A stretch of DNA of 64,000 nt from contig NZ_JADYTL010000001.1 in NCBI RefSeq assembly GCF_021531055.1, positions 310,001 through 374,000 of the forward strand, given 5' to 3'. Under the pieces are notes generated by a model. It worked only from the letters and a program-made list of their open reading frames with translations. It was not told the origin of the DNA and made no database searches. Origin of the DNA: Collinsella tanakaei. Lineage in GTDB: Bacteria > Actinomycetota > Coriobacteriia > Coriobacteriales > Coriobacteriaceae. Below are positions 1-5,863 of this stretch, piece after piece. The position numbers were made by a program, and so were the translations under genes. How positions within the stretch are numbered: the first letter of the stretch is position 1; every line of letters starts with the position of its first letter.

Positions 1-1062
1 GCGCACCGCGCCGGTCTCGAGCGTGCCCAACGCCGCATGCATGCGCGGCGCGCAATGGAGCCCCGCACGGGTGGCGATATCGAATTCGCATGCAAGGCGA
101 TCCGCCAAGCTCGAGGAATCGATACCCGCCATATTGAGGGCGACCACGCCCGTATGGTCATGCCCGTCGTCGACGCCGTACACGGTGATCGACGGGATCG
201 CCGCGACGCCCTCGACGAATCGCTCGCGCAGGGCGCGCTCGTGCGCCTCCACCCGATCGATGCCGAGCGCGAGGAGGAACTCGAGAGCGGCGTCGAGCCC
301 GGCGAGCCCGTGGGCGTTCATGGTACCGGCCTCGAGATGCTCCGGATAGCTCGAAGGCTGGAAGGGATCAGCGCTTTTGACACCCGTCCCCCCGTGTACG
401 AGCGGTGTCAGCTCGAGGTCGGGTGCCACGGCGAGTCCGCCGGTGCCCTGCGGCCCCATAAGGGCCTTGTGCCCGGTAAAGCAGATGATATCGGCACCGA
501 GAGCGGCCATATCGACCGGAAGCGCGCCGAGCGTCTGGGAGGCGTCGAGGATGAAGCGCGCGCCGTGCGCGTGTGCGGCGCGCGCAATCGTCGCGGCGTC
601 GGTGATCGCGCCCGTGAGGTTGGAGGCATGGGTCGCCACCACGGCGCGCGTGTTCGGTTGGAACAGGCCCTCGAGCGCCTCCATGCACAGGCGTCCCGCG
701 CGATCGGCGGGAACGTAATCGAGCTCGATGATGCCGCGCCGCTCGAGCTCATGCAGCGGACGGAGCACGGAGTTATGCTCGAAGTCGGTGGTGATCACAT
801 GATCGCCCGGGCGAAGCAGGCCGAAGATCGCCGTGTTCAGCGCCACGGTGGCGTTGTGCGCGAAGATCACGCGCTCGGGATGGCGAAAGCCGATGAGACG
901 TGCGAGCTTCACGCGGGCGCCGGCCACCGAGCGGGCGGCGGCAAGGTCGTCGGGTGACGCGCCCCGCGAGCAGCTGCCCGCTCCGGACATCGCCGCCACG
1001 ACGGCATCGGCGACCGCAGGAGGCTTTTGAATCGTGGTCGCGGCGTTGTTCAGGTAGATCAT
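1..1062 (-). CDS. Cysteine desulfurase family protein, selenium-associated class V aminotransferase (3' end beyond window)
   Basis: PLP-dependent class V aminotransferase fold. The N-terminus MIYLNNAATT is typical of the EF2568-like cysteine desulfurase subgroup often found with YedF. A TGHKAL motif places the PLP lysine near residue 199. A late AGLHCAP motif places the catalytic cysteine near residue 337. Family members take sulfur (or selenium) from cysteine or selenocysteine as an enzyme-bound persulfide. The ATG at 1062 follows a GGAG box, and the gene starts 32 bases after the yedF stop, so the two are probably co-transcribed. The reading frame stays open to the window edge, so the C-terminus is missing. 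The selenium role is inferred from family and neighbour, not shown by the sequence. Confidence 0.9.
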   Translation of the reverse strand, partial: MIYLNNAATTIQKPPAVADAVVAAMSGAGSCSRGASPDDLAAARSVAGARVKLARLIGFRHPERVIFAHNATVALNTAIFGLLRPGDHVITTDFEHNSVLRPLHELERRGIIELDYVPADRAGRLCMEALEGLFQPNTRAVVATHASNLTGAITDAATIARAAHAHGARFILDASQTLGALPVDMAALGADIICFTGHKALMGPQGTGGLAVAPDLELTPLVHGGTGVKSADPFQPSSYPEHLEAGTMNAHGLAGLDAALEFLLALGIDRVEAHERALRERFVEGVAAIPSITVYGVDDGHDHTGVVALNMAGIDSSSLADRLACEFDIATRAGLHCAPRMHAALGTLETGAVR

Positions 1063-1094: not shown

Positions 1095-1736
1095 TTACAG
1101 GGTCACGATCTTGTCGGGGCCGAGCACGAACTCCGAGATCGCGTACAGGTTGGTCACGCCGCCGACGGCGAGCTTGTCGCGCAGGCCATGGAAATCGAGG
1201 CAGGTGCCGCAGGTCAGCACCTCGCAGCCGCGACGCTCGAGCTCGCGGACGTCGTCGACGAGCTCGGAGCCCTCGCAGGTGAGCGCGGCGCCGTCGTTGA
1301 AGAAGACGATGCGATGCGGCGGCTCATCGGCCTGGGACATGGCGTAGACGAGCCCCTTGATCAGGATGTGGCCGAGCTCGGCGGCACCCTGGCCGAGCGC
1401 CTTGGATCCGACGAACACGGTAACCTGCTGGCCGACAGCGATCGGCTCGGGAACCGGACAGGCGATGCTCGCCTCGACGAGCGCCGCATCGTCACCGGCG
1501 GGATTCTCGGCAGCCTCGGCGGTGACGTCCGCGATCGTGACCGCCCAGCCGCCGTCGATCTCATCGACCGCGACCGTGCCCCGCTTGCTCGTCGCGAGGC
1601 GTTTGAGGTTCTCGACGGCGACGGTGTTGTCGACGCATACGCGCACCGAGCCTTCCGATGCGGGGTCTTGCAACGCCTTCATGGCGCGGATCACGGGCTT
1701 CGGACATGTTTCGCCGAACGAATCGATCTCGATCAT
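1095..1736 (-). CDS. yedF: YedF-like selenium-metabolism sulfurtransferase (TusA-DsrE fusion)
   Basis: A 213-residue protein with two domains. Residues 1-70 are TusA/SirA-like with the conserved GETCPKP motif (Cys11), the thiol that carries persulfide or selenide. Residues 105-213 are DsrE-like with a CGTCLDF motif. This fusion is the typical selenium-associated YedF architecture and normally sits beside an EF2568-type cysteine desulfurase, as here. An upstream in-frame ATG exists at 1754. The ATG at 1736 is preferred because GGGAGC lies at ideal spacing before it and MIEIDSFGETCPKP is the usual family N-terminus. It is the first gene of a two-gene operon and faces away from the tRNA genes. 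Confidence 0.88.
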   Translation of the reverse strand: MIEIDSFGETCPKPVIRAMKALQDPASEGSVRVCVDNTVAVENLKRLATSKRGTVAVDEIDGGWAVTIADVTAEAAENPAGDDAALVEASIACPVPEPIAVGQQVTVFVGSKALGQGAAELGHILIKGLVYAMSQADEPPHRIVFFNDGAALTCEGSELVDDVRELERRGCEVLTCGTCLDFHGLRDKLAVGGVTNLYAISEFVLGPDKIVTL

Positions 1737-1794
1737 GGGACAGGCTCCCTTCATACAATCTTGCGTTGAGGATAGTTTATTATCGAATTATTCA

Positions 1795-2142: not shown

Positions 2143-2173
2143 GCAGGCCAGACGCGTAAAGCATCTGGCCTGC
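2143..2173 (+). terminator. Stem-loop after the tRNA pair
   Basis: GCAGGCCAGA pairs perfectly with TCTGGCCTGC around an 11-base loop, ten bases after tRNA-Gly. The T-tract is poor (TTGCGTAT), so it may be a processing or weak termination hairpin. Confidence 0.6.
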
Positions 2174-2579: not shown

Positions 2580-3749
2580 TTAAGCGCGACGGGTCACGCG
2601 GTTCGTCCATTCGGCGGCGATGATCATGGCGAGCAGGAACACACAAAGATAGACCGGGTAGAGCTCTACCGAGATCACCTGAGCGAGCACGCCGAACGCA
2701 GGCGATGCCACCAGATAGCCGATATAGGCGATCGCCATCTGCATGCCGGTCAACTCCAACGCGACGTCCTCTCCGAAGCGTTTGGGCGTCGCATGGATAA
2801 TCGAGGGGTAGATGGGAGCGCATCCCGAACCGATCAGCACGAGCGCGACGGGCAGCAGATGACGCAAGCCGGGCACGAGCATCACCACGACGCCCGCGGC
2901 GATCAGAATCTGGCCGAGGCGGATCATCTGCTCGTCTTTCAGCCGCATGGTAAGAAATCCGCTCACGCCGCGCCCGACCGTGATGCCGATGTAGAACAGG
3001 GACGCCCAGCTCGCGGCCGTGCTCGCCGAGATGCCGCCCGCGAGGGTGCAATAGGTCGCCGCCCAGTTGCCACACGTTCCCTCGACGGAGCAGTAGCAGA
3101 AAAAGCAGATGAGCACCGGCACGACACCGCGCACGCCGAGCAGCTCACGGCGCGTGCGACGCGCCCTCCCCTGCACTGCGTCGCCGCTCGCCTTATGCGG
3201 GAGCTTCCGATCCTTCCAAAGCGGCAGCGACAGCGTCAGCACCGCGACGATCACGAGCTGCGCGATACCGAGCACGCGAAAGCCGTCGTTCCACGTTCCG
3301 GTTCCAAGGCACATCGACATGATGACCGGACCGCCGCTCGCGCCGACGCCCCACATGCAATGAAGCCAGCTCATGTGCTGGGATTTATAGTGCACCGCAA
3401 CATACGCGTTGAGCGCGGCGTCGACCGCCCCTGCCCCCAGACCGTAGGGAATCGCCCAAAGGCACAGCTGCCAGAACTCGCCGGAGAGCGAGAAGCCCAT
3501 CAGGGCGGCGGCGGTCAGCAGCACGCTCGTCGCCGTCACGCGACCCGTGCCGAACCGGTCGACCACGCGCACCGACATCAAGCTCGACACGATCGTTCCC
3601 GCCGAGATGATCATGCTGACGGCGCCGACCCACGAGAGACCGGCGCCCAACGCTGGCGCCATCGTGGGCCACGCCGACCCGATCGCCGAGTCGGGAAGTC
3701 CAAGGGCTATGAACGCAAGGTAGATGATAGGAAGTAAACCTGCCGGCAT
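2580..3749 (-). CDS. MFS transporter
   Basis: A 389-residue, twelve-helix major facilitator protein. Its N-terminus runs straight into helix 1 (PAGLLPIIYLAFIALGLPDS). That segment and the central PLGAGAVDAALNAYVA-like region (here YGLGAGAVDAALNAYVAVHY) resemble the FucP/sugar-permease-like MFS branch; the substrate cannot be read. The GTG/ATG possibilities upstream are rejected because GGAGG lies four bases before the ATG at 3749. The gene follows the double-cubane/activator pair with a 97-base gap and may be the last gene of that unit. No terminator is evident after it before the repeat array. Confidence 0.85.
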   Translation of the reverse strand: MPAGLLPIIYLAFIALGLPDSAIGSAWPTMAPALGAGLSWVGAVSMIISAGTIVSSLMSVRVVDRFGTGRVTATSVLLTAAALMGFSLSGEFWQLCLWAIPYGLGAGAVDAALNAYVAVHYKSQHMSWLHCMWGVGASGGPVIMSMCLGTGTWNDGFRVLGIAQLVIVAVLTLSLPLWKDRKLPHKASGDAVQGRARRTRRELLGVRGVVPVLICFFCYCSVEGTCGNWAATYCTLAGGISASTAASWASLFYIGITVGRGVSGFLTMRLKDEQMIRLGQILIAAGVVVMLVPGLRHLLPVALVLIGSGCAPIYPSIIHATPKRFGEDVALELTGMQMAIAYIGYLVASPAFGVLAQVISVELYPVYLCVFLLAMIIAAEWTNRVTRRA

Positions 3750-3846
3750 GACGCCTCCGAGCAACATCTTGTTTGAACAACTCGGCATCGTAGCACAACA
3801 GGACAGATGTGATTTCCTCTGACGAAATTTAACCTGCGGTGTGATT

Positions 3847-4617
3847 TCACCTGGCAAGCGCTCGATCGGCGGCGCCGAGGGCGCCGGCGTAGCGCGCTTC
3901 GGGACACGTCGTCACGGGGGCACCGAGCGCGTCTGCGAGCCGCTCGACCACGAAGGCGTTGTCGCACAGCCCTCCGGTCAGGAAAAACGGACCCGCGGGC
4001 GACTGCCCAGCGAGCGCTGCGACGCGTGCGACCACGGAATCGATCACGCCACGCGCGATATCGGCGCGCGGCACGCCGCGACCGACCAGCGAGATCACCT
4101 CGGACTCGGCAAACACCGTGCACATGCTCGAGATCTTGGTCTCGGCACCCTCACGGGCCAAACGAGCCATCTCCTCCTGCGACACGCCGAGACGATCCGC
4201 CATGATCTCGAGGAACCTACCCGTTCCGGCGGCGCACTTGTCGTTCATGGTGAACTTGACGACACGCCCACCCTTCAGCTGGATGACCTTGGTATCCTGG
4301 CCGCCGACATCCACGACGGTTCCCTGTGGCCCGAACAGGCGCGCCGCACCGATGCCGTGACAGGTGATCTCGGTCACAACCTTATCGGCATACGGCACGG
4401 CGATGCGTCCGTATCCGGTCGCCACGATCCGAACGGCATCCGATTCGACATCGTACCCAGCGGCAGCCAACGCACGCGCGACGCGATCGGCGGCGTCGAC
4501 ACTCGAATAACCCGTCGGCATGAGCTCGCTATGCACCAGAGCGCCGTCGTCGTCGAGCACCGTGACCTTCGTCGCCGTCGACCCGATGTCGACACCGATT
4601 CCGTATCTGCTTCCCAT
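3847..4617 (-). CDS. 2-hydroxyacyl-CoA dehydratase-type activator ATPase (YjiL/HgdC-like, double-cubane protein reductase)
   Basis: A 256-residue ASKHA-fold ATPase of the BadF/BcrA family. The nucleotide-binding motifs are GVDIGSTATK (residues 8-17) and DVGGQDTKVI (103-112). The two cysteines that bridge a [4Fe-4S] cluster across the homodimer in HgdC are present as NDKCAAGTGR (Cys128) and MCTVFAESE (Cys166). The protein injects low-potential electrons into a partner with ATP hydrolysis. The partner is very probably the gene just upstream, 70 bases away. The length matches E. coli YjiL and double-cubane reductases better than longer benzoyl-CoA reductase subunits. The start ATG at 4617 has an AAGGGCGG box. 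Confidence 0.9.
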   Translation of the reverse strand: MGSRYGIGVDIGSTATKVTVLDDDGALVHSELMPTGYSSVDAADRVARALAAAGYDVESDAVRIVATGYGRIAVPYADKVVTEITCHGIGAARLFGPQGTVVDVGGQDTKVIQLKGGRVVKFTMNDKCAAGTGRFLEIMADRLGVSQEEMARLAREGAETKISSMCTVFAESEVISLVGRGVPRADIARGVIDSVVARVAALAGQSPAGPFFLTGGLCDNAFVVERLADALGAPVTTCPEARYAGALGAADRALAR

Positions 4618-4687
4618 CAGTCCGCCCTTACAGCCTTCCCCCGTGCGGCGTCCGAAAGCGATTCCGAGCGCCGCACGGCGACAACCC

Positions 4688-5863
4688 TTACAGCGTCTCG
4701 ATGAACGCGGCGATACGCGTGTCGATCTGACCCTGATCTCCTGCACTGTAATCGGTCTCGATCTTCATGTACGGAACACCCGCCCCCTCGATGGCGCGCT
4801 CCATGAGCGACGCCTCGACATTGAAGGTGTGGCAGGCCGTAAGCACGCTTTCGATCACGCCATCGACGCCGTACTTCTCGACCATCTTGAGCGTATTGTC
4901 CATACGACCGGCATTCGGCGTCATGACGGAGCAGTTGATATCGAGATAGCGGTCGGAGATGGCACGCAGGATGTCCGGCGCCTCCTCGTCGATCAGGCTC
5001 GCCTGCGTGCGCTCGCCCGAGCAATCGTCCGCGCACACGACGACACCTCCGTTGCGCTCGATCGTCCGACCGATCTTGTTGATCACGCCACCGATGGGAC
5101 AACCCGTCACGAGCAGGCGCTTGGCATCGGCGGGCACCGGGCGCTCCCCCGCCTCGTACTGTGCACGGCGCTCGGCGGCAAGCGCCTCGAGCTTGGTCGT
5201 GAACTCCTCGACATCGAAGCTGAACGTCGCGGCGAACATCGTGCTCATGAGCTCCACGCCGCTCATCGCGGGCGGCTCGGCGGCCTGCAGGTTGTAGAGC
5301 GCCGTCATCGCCCGGCGCATGCGGTTGCGACGGCGGACGGCAGCTCGCAGGTCGTCATCGGTGATGGCGATGCCGTAGAGCTCCTCGAGCCGCTCCTTGA
5401 GCAGGCGGCACTCCTCATACCAGGCGTCGCGCTCGTACGCGCGATCGCGACCCTGCGGTAGATGCAGGATGTGCGTCGGCTTGAGCTCGTCGAGCAGCTC
5501 GTACATCTTCTTCTTGCCATCGCAGGTCGTCTCGCCGACGATGATGTCGGAAAAGAAGGTGAACGGGCACTTTTCCGAGGATGCGAACCCGTAGGTCGAC
5601 TTGATCAGGGGGCAGAGATTCGCCGGAAGCGTCACCTCGGCCGCCGGAATGACCTCGTCGGAGGTGCCGCAGAGCGCCACGCCCGACGCGCCGGCGGCAT
5701 CGATGATCTCGAGCGGGGTGTAGCTGCAGAGGTATCCGACCAGGCGGCCACCGGCCTGCTTGAAATCCTTCACCCGGATGAAGCTCGCACGACGTTGTTC
5801 GTTGAACTCCTCGAAGGTGCGAGGCAACGGGTAGCGGTCGGCGTTCGTCTCGGTATCGCCCAT
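4688..5863 (-). CDS. Double-cubane cluster protein / 2-hydroxyacyl-CoA dehydratase family (YjiM-like)
   Basis: A 391-residue HGD-D family protein. Conserved cysteine-bearing motifs include [47 protein letters not shown] and LTACHTF, as in iron-sulfur subunits of this family. It stands alone, without the second dehydratase subunit or CoA-transferase found in true HgdABC operons. Its size and the adjacent single activator match the YjiM/YjiL and double-cubane (Fe8S9) proteins that reduce small substrates such as acetylene in vitro. The natural substrate is unknown. ATG 5863 is chosen over 5878 because AAAGGA sits seven bases before it. It heads the operon. Confidence 0.88.

Follow-up and report, generated by a model that had tools for sequence, protein, structure and literature searches.

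Which reaction is served by a double-cubane cluster protein (DCCP) that Collinsella tanakaei encodes next to an activase of its own? The gene pair lies in a stretch of 64,000 nucleotides (positions 310,001 to 374,000 of contig NZ_JADYTL010000001.1, hereafter the window; Table 1). The best match from a named species, C. tanakaei ET30, shows 96% identity, and a Collinsella bin reaches 98%; data on the family, on DCCP and on gene order are in accord with a genome close to C. tanakaei. DCCPs are ATP-coupled, nitrogenase-like reductases whose physiological substrate is called unclear in the available part of a published account (PMC11971306). The comparison of loci and genomes presented here shows that selenium metabolism is the conserved context of these proteins.

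The initial annotation had described the pair as a protein of the YjiM/YjiL type with its own activator and without a second subunit, and this description holds. In particular, the window protein matches the equivalog model NF040772 with 483.7 bits (E 3.5e-145, cut-off 350), the next-best model reaching 88 bits, and the family PF06050 with 374.7 bits. YjiM of E. coli, which also has an activase adjacent to it, scores 531 bits on NF040772, and in a tree of 68 rows (6ENO not among them) both proteins fall within the DCCP clade, apart from the paired dehydratase subunits and not inside HgdB/FldC. The own genome, a 98.45%-complete assembly, contains one PF06050 match only; consequently, there is no partner subunit for DCCP. 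Structure prediction, proposed like the phylogeny as a check on the annotation, points the same way, the alignment-based model (predicted local distance difference test, pLDDT, 93.6) being closest in fold to DCCP, which provides the leading matches in the Protein Data Bank (PDB). The closest solved relative by sequence is the DCCP of Carboxydothermus hydrogenoformans with its reductase, DCCP-R (PDB 6ENO, 7YYL and 7YZM; E 8e-81), and the superposition gives a Z of 49.3 and a root-mean-square deviation of 1.8 over 377 residues at 38% identity, with all cluster cysteines in common.

Six cysteines of the window protein (46, 84, 114, 281, 311 and 344) align with cysteines of BzdN and of 6ENO, the protein from C. 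hydrogenoformans. They are invariant in 55/55 relatives, over which eight cysteines in all are invariant, and on this alignment they are the predicted ligands of the cluster. BzdN, whose cysteines coincide with all six positions, carries a double cubane bound by six cysteine thiolates, according to the available portion of its description (PMC11971306). By analogy with the characterised homolog, the window protein would be a homodimer with a cluster of the [Fe8S9] type and coupled to ATP. An in-frame scan of the DCCP matches in the 80 loci described below found a single stop, a TGA in L046, and none at a ligand cysteine; selenocysteine in DCCP was therefore rejected, as the apparent splits in L046 and L066 are frameshifts and the lone TGA falls at a non-cysteine position.

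The activase matches TIGR00241 with 234.7 bits (cut-off 125.4) and PF01869 with 191 bits. It lies on the same strand as DCCP, 70 bases beyond it, and contains the motifs NDKCAAGTGRF and SSMCTVFAESE. Both cysteine motifs align with the HgdC activator 1hux, and the two motif cysteines are presumably cluster ligands. The activase partner of the C. hydrogenoformans protein is also in the PDB (7yyl_E), and the window activase scores higher to 1hux than to DCCP-R. Two other functions were considered for the pair and rejected. The 2-hydroxyacyl-CoA dehydratases HadBC and HgdAB share the PF06050 fold and the activase type, but they are two-subunit enzymes, whereas the window genome has its single PF06050 gene outside their clade, with 87.5 bits on the HadC model against a cut-off of 700. 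Likewise, the class I benzoyl-CoA reductase BzdNO, for all the likeness of BzdN, differs in that the window protein reaches 88.2 and 72.8 bits on the BzdN/BcrC models (cut-offs 453.8 and 421, respectively), with no BzdO/BcrB partner; 88.2 bits is the highest score on any of the benzoyl-CoA reductase and hydroxyisocaproyl-CoA dehydratase models, whose cut-offs range from 421 to 700. The window pair is confirmed as a stand-alone DCCP plus ATP-dependent activase.

The selenium context, missed by the initial annotation, starts inside the window with yedF and continues just outside it, where selD follows past yedF and a lyase-like gene (seen in locus L118); the three genes lie 3-5 kb from the DCCP/activase pair. 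In the own genome (G000; C8:308677-309600 and whole genome), selD has no in-frame TGA, yqeB is present and selA is absent. In other words, this bacterium uses selenium via the labile-cofactor route only, and many of its relatives decode selenocysteine too. The window differs from the solved case in that its DCCP stands within a cluster of selenium genes, in a Collinsella without selA. C. hydrogenoformans likewise uses selenium, being a selenoprotein user, as stated in the part of the source at hand (PMC1794560).

How general this arrangement is can be seen in the 80 loci that resemble the query DCCP most closely, taken from a scan of genome contigs. A cysteine desulfurase of the selenocysteine-lyase-like kind recurs next to DCCP in 31 loci, YedF in 30, the Se/S carrier protein PF11823 in 24 and SelD in 20, all lower bounds, since genes were predicted with our own caller and an in-frame TGA truncates selD. 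At least one of five selenium-type families flanks DCCP in 42/80 loci, a count that includes a LysR cluster and a carrier-protein cluster, one member of each having been checked; the checked LysR member, present in some loci, is the selenium-associated regulator NF040786. Each component of the predicted selenium set formed by YedF, the Se/S carrier protein (DUF3343, PF11823), the SclA-type lyase and LysR_Se occurs in loci with DCCP. Genes of the Sao type, including SaoC (NF040734), and Sao-like or SsuA-like ATP-binding cassette (ABC) transporter genes are found in some loci, and in five of the 80 (L047, L049, L052, L066 and L086) DCCP stands next to MtaA-type corrinoid methyltransferases and a corrinoid activase. 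In addition, a FocA-like formate/nitrite transporter gene lies near DCCP at L009:11595-12548, with homologs in L008, L010, L020 and L029, and the C. aerofaciens-type loci L011-L017 carry a tandem DCCP pair, in which the second protein shares about 40% identity with that of the window; selD and yedF belong to the same run of genes.

The association extends beyond gene neighbourhood. Among 65 Coriobacteriaceae genomes, DCCP is found in 29, selD in 38 and yedF in 39, and all 29 carriers have both yedF and a selD over the cut-off (hypergeometric 6.5e-11); DCCP and selD lie no more than 10 kb apart on one contig in 28 of these carriers, and on different contigs in G034. Of 147 genomes sampled across the class to which a Clostridium relative belongs, DCCP is present in 16 and selD in 37, and again every carrier has selD (hypergeometric 1.3e-11). 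The class sampled, Clostridia, consists mostly of anaerobes, so that lifestyle is controlled for in part; the hypergeometric and Fisher P values take no account of shared ancestry. G149, with a sub-cut-off homolog of 270 bits and no selD, was scored as DCCP-negative. A further 49 DCCP-positive genomes, which include Clostridia, Synergistales, Fusobacteriales, Spirochaetales and Dehalococcoidales, are selD-positive without exception. This set is non-random, being drawn from the query-like loci: 50/80 were selected for it, 30 were omitted, many of them near-duplicates or small contigs, and L071 was not included. As G100 and G104 are common to the 49 and the 16 Clostridia-class carriers, the union comprises 92 distinct DCCP-positive genomes, 92/92 with selD; no case of DCCP without selD was seen among them. 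Of the named controls, 14 genomes in all, E. coli and M. jannaschii are the ones with DCCP and also the ones with selD. The pattern is specific to DCCP within its wider family, as only 7/20 of the genomes of the 147-genome sample that have PF06050 and lack DCCP carry selD (Fisher 5e-5 versus 16/16).

To which use of selenium is DCCP connected? Among the 16 Clostridia-class carriers, seven have selA only, three yqeB only and six both, while the 29 family carriers comprise 20 with selA and yqeB, eight with yqeB only (the own genome included) and one, G040 (87% complete), with neither. With the exception of G085 and G096, each of the further 49 has yqeB, or else a selD with an in-frame TGA. Another selenium use is thus visible in 89/92 DCCP-positive genomes, and three (G040, G085 and G096) have neither yqeB nor a sign of selenocysteine, no selA search having been made in G085 and G096. 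On the selD contigs of these two genomes (L119 and L120), yedF stands beside selD and no selA was recognised by eye, without a search for it; DCCP is possibly their only visible selenium-linked gene. Taken over selenocysteine-only, selenium-cofactor-only and mixed genomes, DCCP tracks SelD and not any one selenium end use. Because the link holds whatever the end use, the place of DCCP is most likely upstream of SelD, where it would supply selenide; a role tied to selenocysteine alone does not fit.

The explanation that we tentatively favour, and to which we would give a little less than an even chance, is that DCCP and DCCP-R use ATP to reduce a selenium compound and so provide SelD with selenide. 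In the solved DCCP complexes, ATP hydrolysis by the activase drives electrons to the double cubane. In the window pair, the activase dimer would accordingly dock onto the DCCP homodimer and its ATP hydrolysis would deliver electrons of low potential to the [Fe8S9] double cubane, where a small substrate would be reduced. Both the substrate and the reaction step are inferred: the substrate may be a selenium species that is hard to reduce, for which elemental selenium is one candidate and an adduct of selenium with a carrier, supplied by YedF, by the Se/S carrier protein or by the selenocysteine lyase, the other, and the product selenide would pass through SelD to selenophosphate. The Se(0)/HSe- couple can be estimated at about -0.7 V at pH 7, below ferredoxin, and an ATP-driven reductant would suit a selenide-forming step. 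The broader proposition, that double-cubane proteins are the missing ATP-driven, nitrogenase-like, low-potential selenide-generating reductases of anaerobes, in its boldest form with selenium as the bridging atom in vivo, is doubtful.

Several observations weigh against selenide supply by DCCP. First, 30/75 selD-positive genomes have no DCCP, which is consequently not needed for selenophosphate. Second, 33/49 non-Coriobacteriia loci have none of the five selenium-type families, which are present in the other 16/49 (the split was made by hand and these loci may include a few Coriobacteriia), and E. coli yjiLM, for all its likeness to the window pair, has no selenium genes adjacent in the 20 kb viewed. 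Third, the activities reported for a homologous DCCP are the reduction of acetylene, azide and hydrazine, in the accessible part of that report (PMC11971306), and the proposed action of DCCP on a selenium compound is inferred from genomes.

In a different explanation, the link to selenium is indirect and DCCP serves some pathway found in anaerobes whose use of selenoenzymes is coincidental, such as the detoxification of small nitrogen compounds or low-potential electron supply. Many DCCP genes do lie outside selenium clusters, and the homolog's only reported activities are on non-selenium small molecules, their physiological relevance being described as unclear in the portion of the source available (PMC11971306). 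Against this, selD accompanies DCCP in 16/16 carriers of a single class in which its background is 25%, related PF06050 enzymes in the same sample do not follow the pattern, and one bacterium and one archaeon among the controls agree with it; we regard an indirect link as unlikely.

A direct link of another kind would be the cleavage of carbon-selenium bonds, that is, the reductive dealkylation of methylselenol, selenosugars or other organic selenium for re-use. The five loci with a corrinoid-activase-type gene and MtaA-type methyltransferases by DCCP are in line with it, as are the Sao-like or SsuA-like transporter genes of other loci, and a 2023 preprint, as far as its available text goes, ties such corrinoid clusters, often with DCCP, to methyl-selenide metabolism (PMC10418091). 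Nevertheless, most loci, the window included, have no methyltransferases, and the corrinoid enzymes would themselves remove the methyl group, which makes this reading improbable as well.

Could DCCP instead be a client of SelD, receiving selenide at the cubane bridge or at another cluster position via selenophosphate, YedF and the carrier protein? Such a dependence would explain the need for selD regardless of the other selenium products of a genome, and would agree with the three genomes out of 92 without yqeB or any sign of selenocysteine (G040, 87% complete, and G085 and G096, in which selA was not searched). On the other hand, the remaining 89 have another use for selenium, and descriptions of the solved DCCP structures give all-sulfide clusters, selenium not being needed. 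BzdN, with the same cluster, is also modelled with bridging sulfur in the part of the study at hand (PMC11971306), and we consider a client role very unlikely. Finally, the pair and the adjacent major facilitator superfamily (MFS) gene might together serve the catabolism of a small molecule that the transporter would import; the MFS gene is co-directional, about 80 bases past the activase, and a putative transporter gene, yjiJ, lies near E. coli yjiLM, but an MFS relative flanks the pair in only 2/80 loci (L008 and L009) and, beyond the window, in four Collinsella genome loci (L110, L113, L115 and L116), so that we give this module hardly any credence.

The initial annotation had suggested that the MFS protein may move the substrate of DCCP and had proposed its co-occurrence in relatives as a check; this idea is not supported, as the gene is not conserved beyond a small Collinsella group, and it is rejected as a conserved partner, being probably a lineage-specific neighbour outside the conserved system.

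Table 1. Coordinates of the features around the DCCP gene, in window positions
Feature	Coordinates	Strand	Basis and remarks
DCCP, 391 aa, double-cubane cluster protein	4688..5863	-	ATG at 5863, stop at 4688; NF040772, PDB 6eno, invariant Cys
DCCP reductase/activase, 256 aa, BadF/HgdC-type ATPase	3847..4617	-	TIGR00241, PF01869; 1hux and 7yyl_E alignments; likely ATG at 4617, stop at 3847 (a longer GTG-started open reading frame to 4746 would overlap DCCP)
MFS transporter open reading frame	2580..3857	-	PF07690; likely start about 3767
Terminator-like hairpin between MFS gene and yedF, by two tRNA genes	2143..2173	-	13-pair stem
YedF, sulfurtransferase-like selenium metabolism protein	1095..1754	-	TIGR03527 174.7 bits, cut-off 110
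Selenocysteine lyase/cysteine desulfurase family gene	1..1062, cut by window edge	-	Whole in L118:7893-9062; TIGR01977 399.8 bits, cut-off 377

As regards the other features, the lyase-like gene scores 355 bits on the SclA model NF040779, below its cut-off of 525. The two tRNA genes lie on the opposite strand, and the evidence for a terminator is weak, with five such sites found against 2.7 (sd 2.2) expected. Upstream of DCCP are modC, modB, modA and moeA. Just left of the window, near selD, L118:890-4818 encodes a three-subunit xanthine-dehydrogenase-like molybdenum enzyme, a candidate selenium-dependent molybdenum hydroxylase. The distances between DCCP and selD given above were tabulated by hand. 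Elsewhere in the own genome, L142 and L143 (on C10 and C1) each encode a protein of about 1,500 aa with two tandem activase domains and DUF2229; the two are possibly another type of ATP-driven reductase. A further activase-type gene is present on C13 in a 456-aa frame; the 459-aa open reading frame assigned to this match has no Pfam match and may be in the wrong frame.

The DCCP family is known and its link to selenium has been put forward provisionally. In the available part of Lin 2015, the STRING neighbours given for Slackia include subunits of 2-hydroxyglutaryl-CoA dehydratase and an activase, which are not named as candidates (PMC5322559). The accessible text of the 2023 preprint speaks of a dicubane protein 'provisionally linked to selenium metabolism', for which it refers to Lin and to Haft & Gwadz 2023 (PMC10418091). 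The words dehydratase and hydroxyglutaryl are absent from the main text of Haft & Self 2008, Zhang 2008, a 2016 survey and a 2022 review. Neither the exclusivity of the link between DCCP and selD nor its independence from end use was found stated in the literature searched; Haft & Gwadz 2023 may hold part of it.

The strict dependence on selD narrows the question of the DCCP substrate to a few selenium compounds that can be tested, and this question is open to study in tractable organisms such as E. coli, with its yjiM/yjiL pair. More generally, these findings suggest the existence of a low-potential entry step into the selenium metabolism of gut bacteria.
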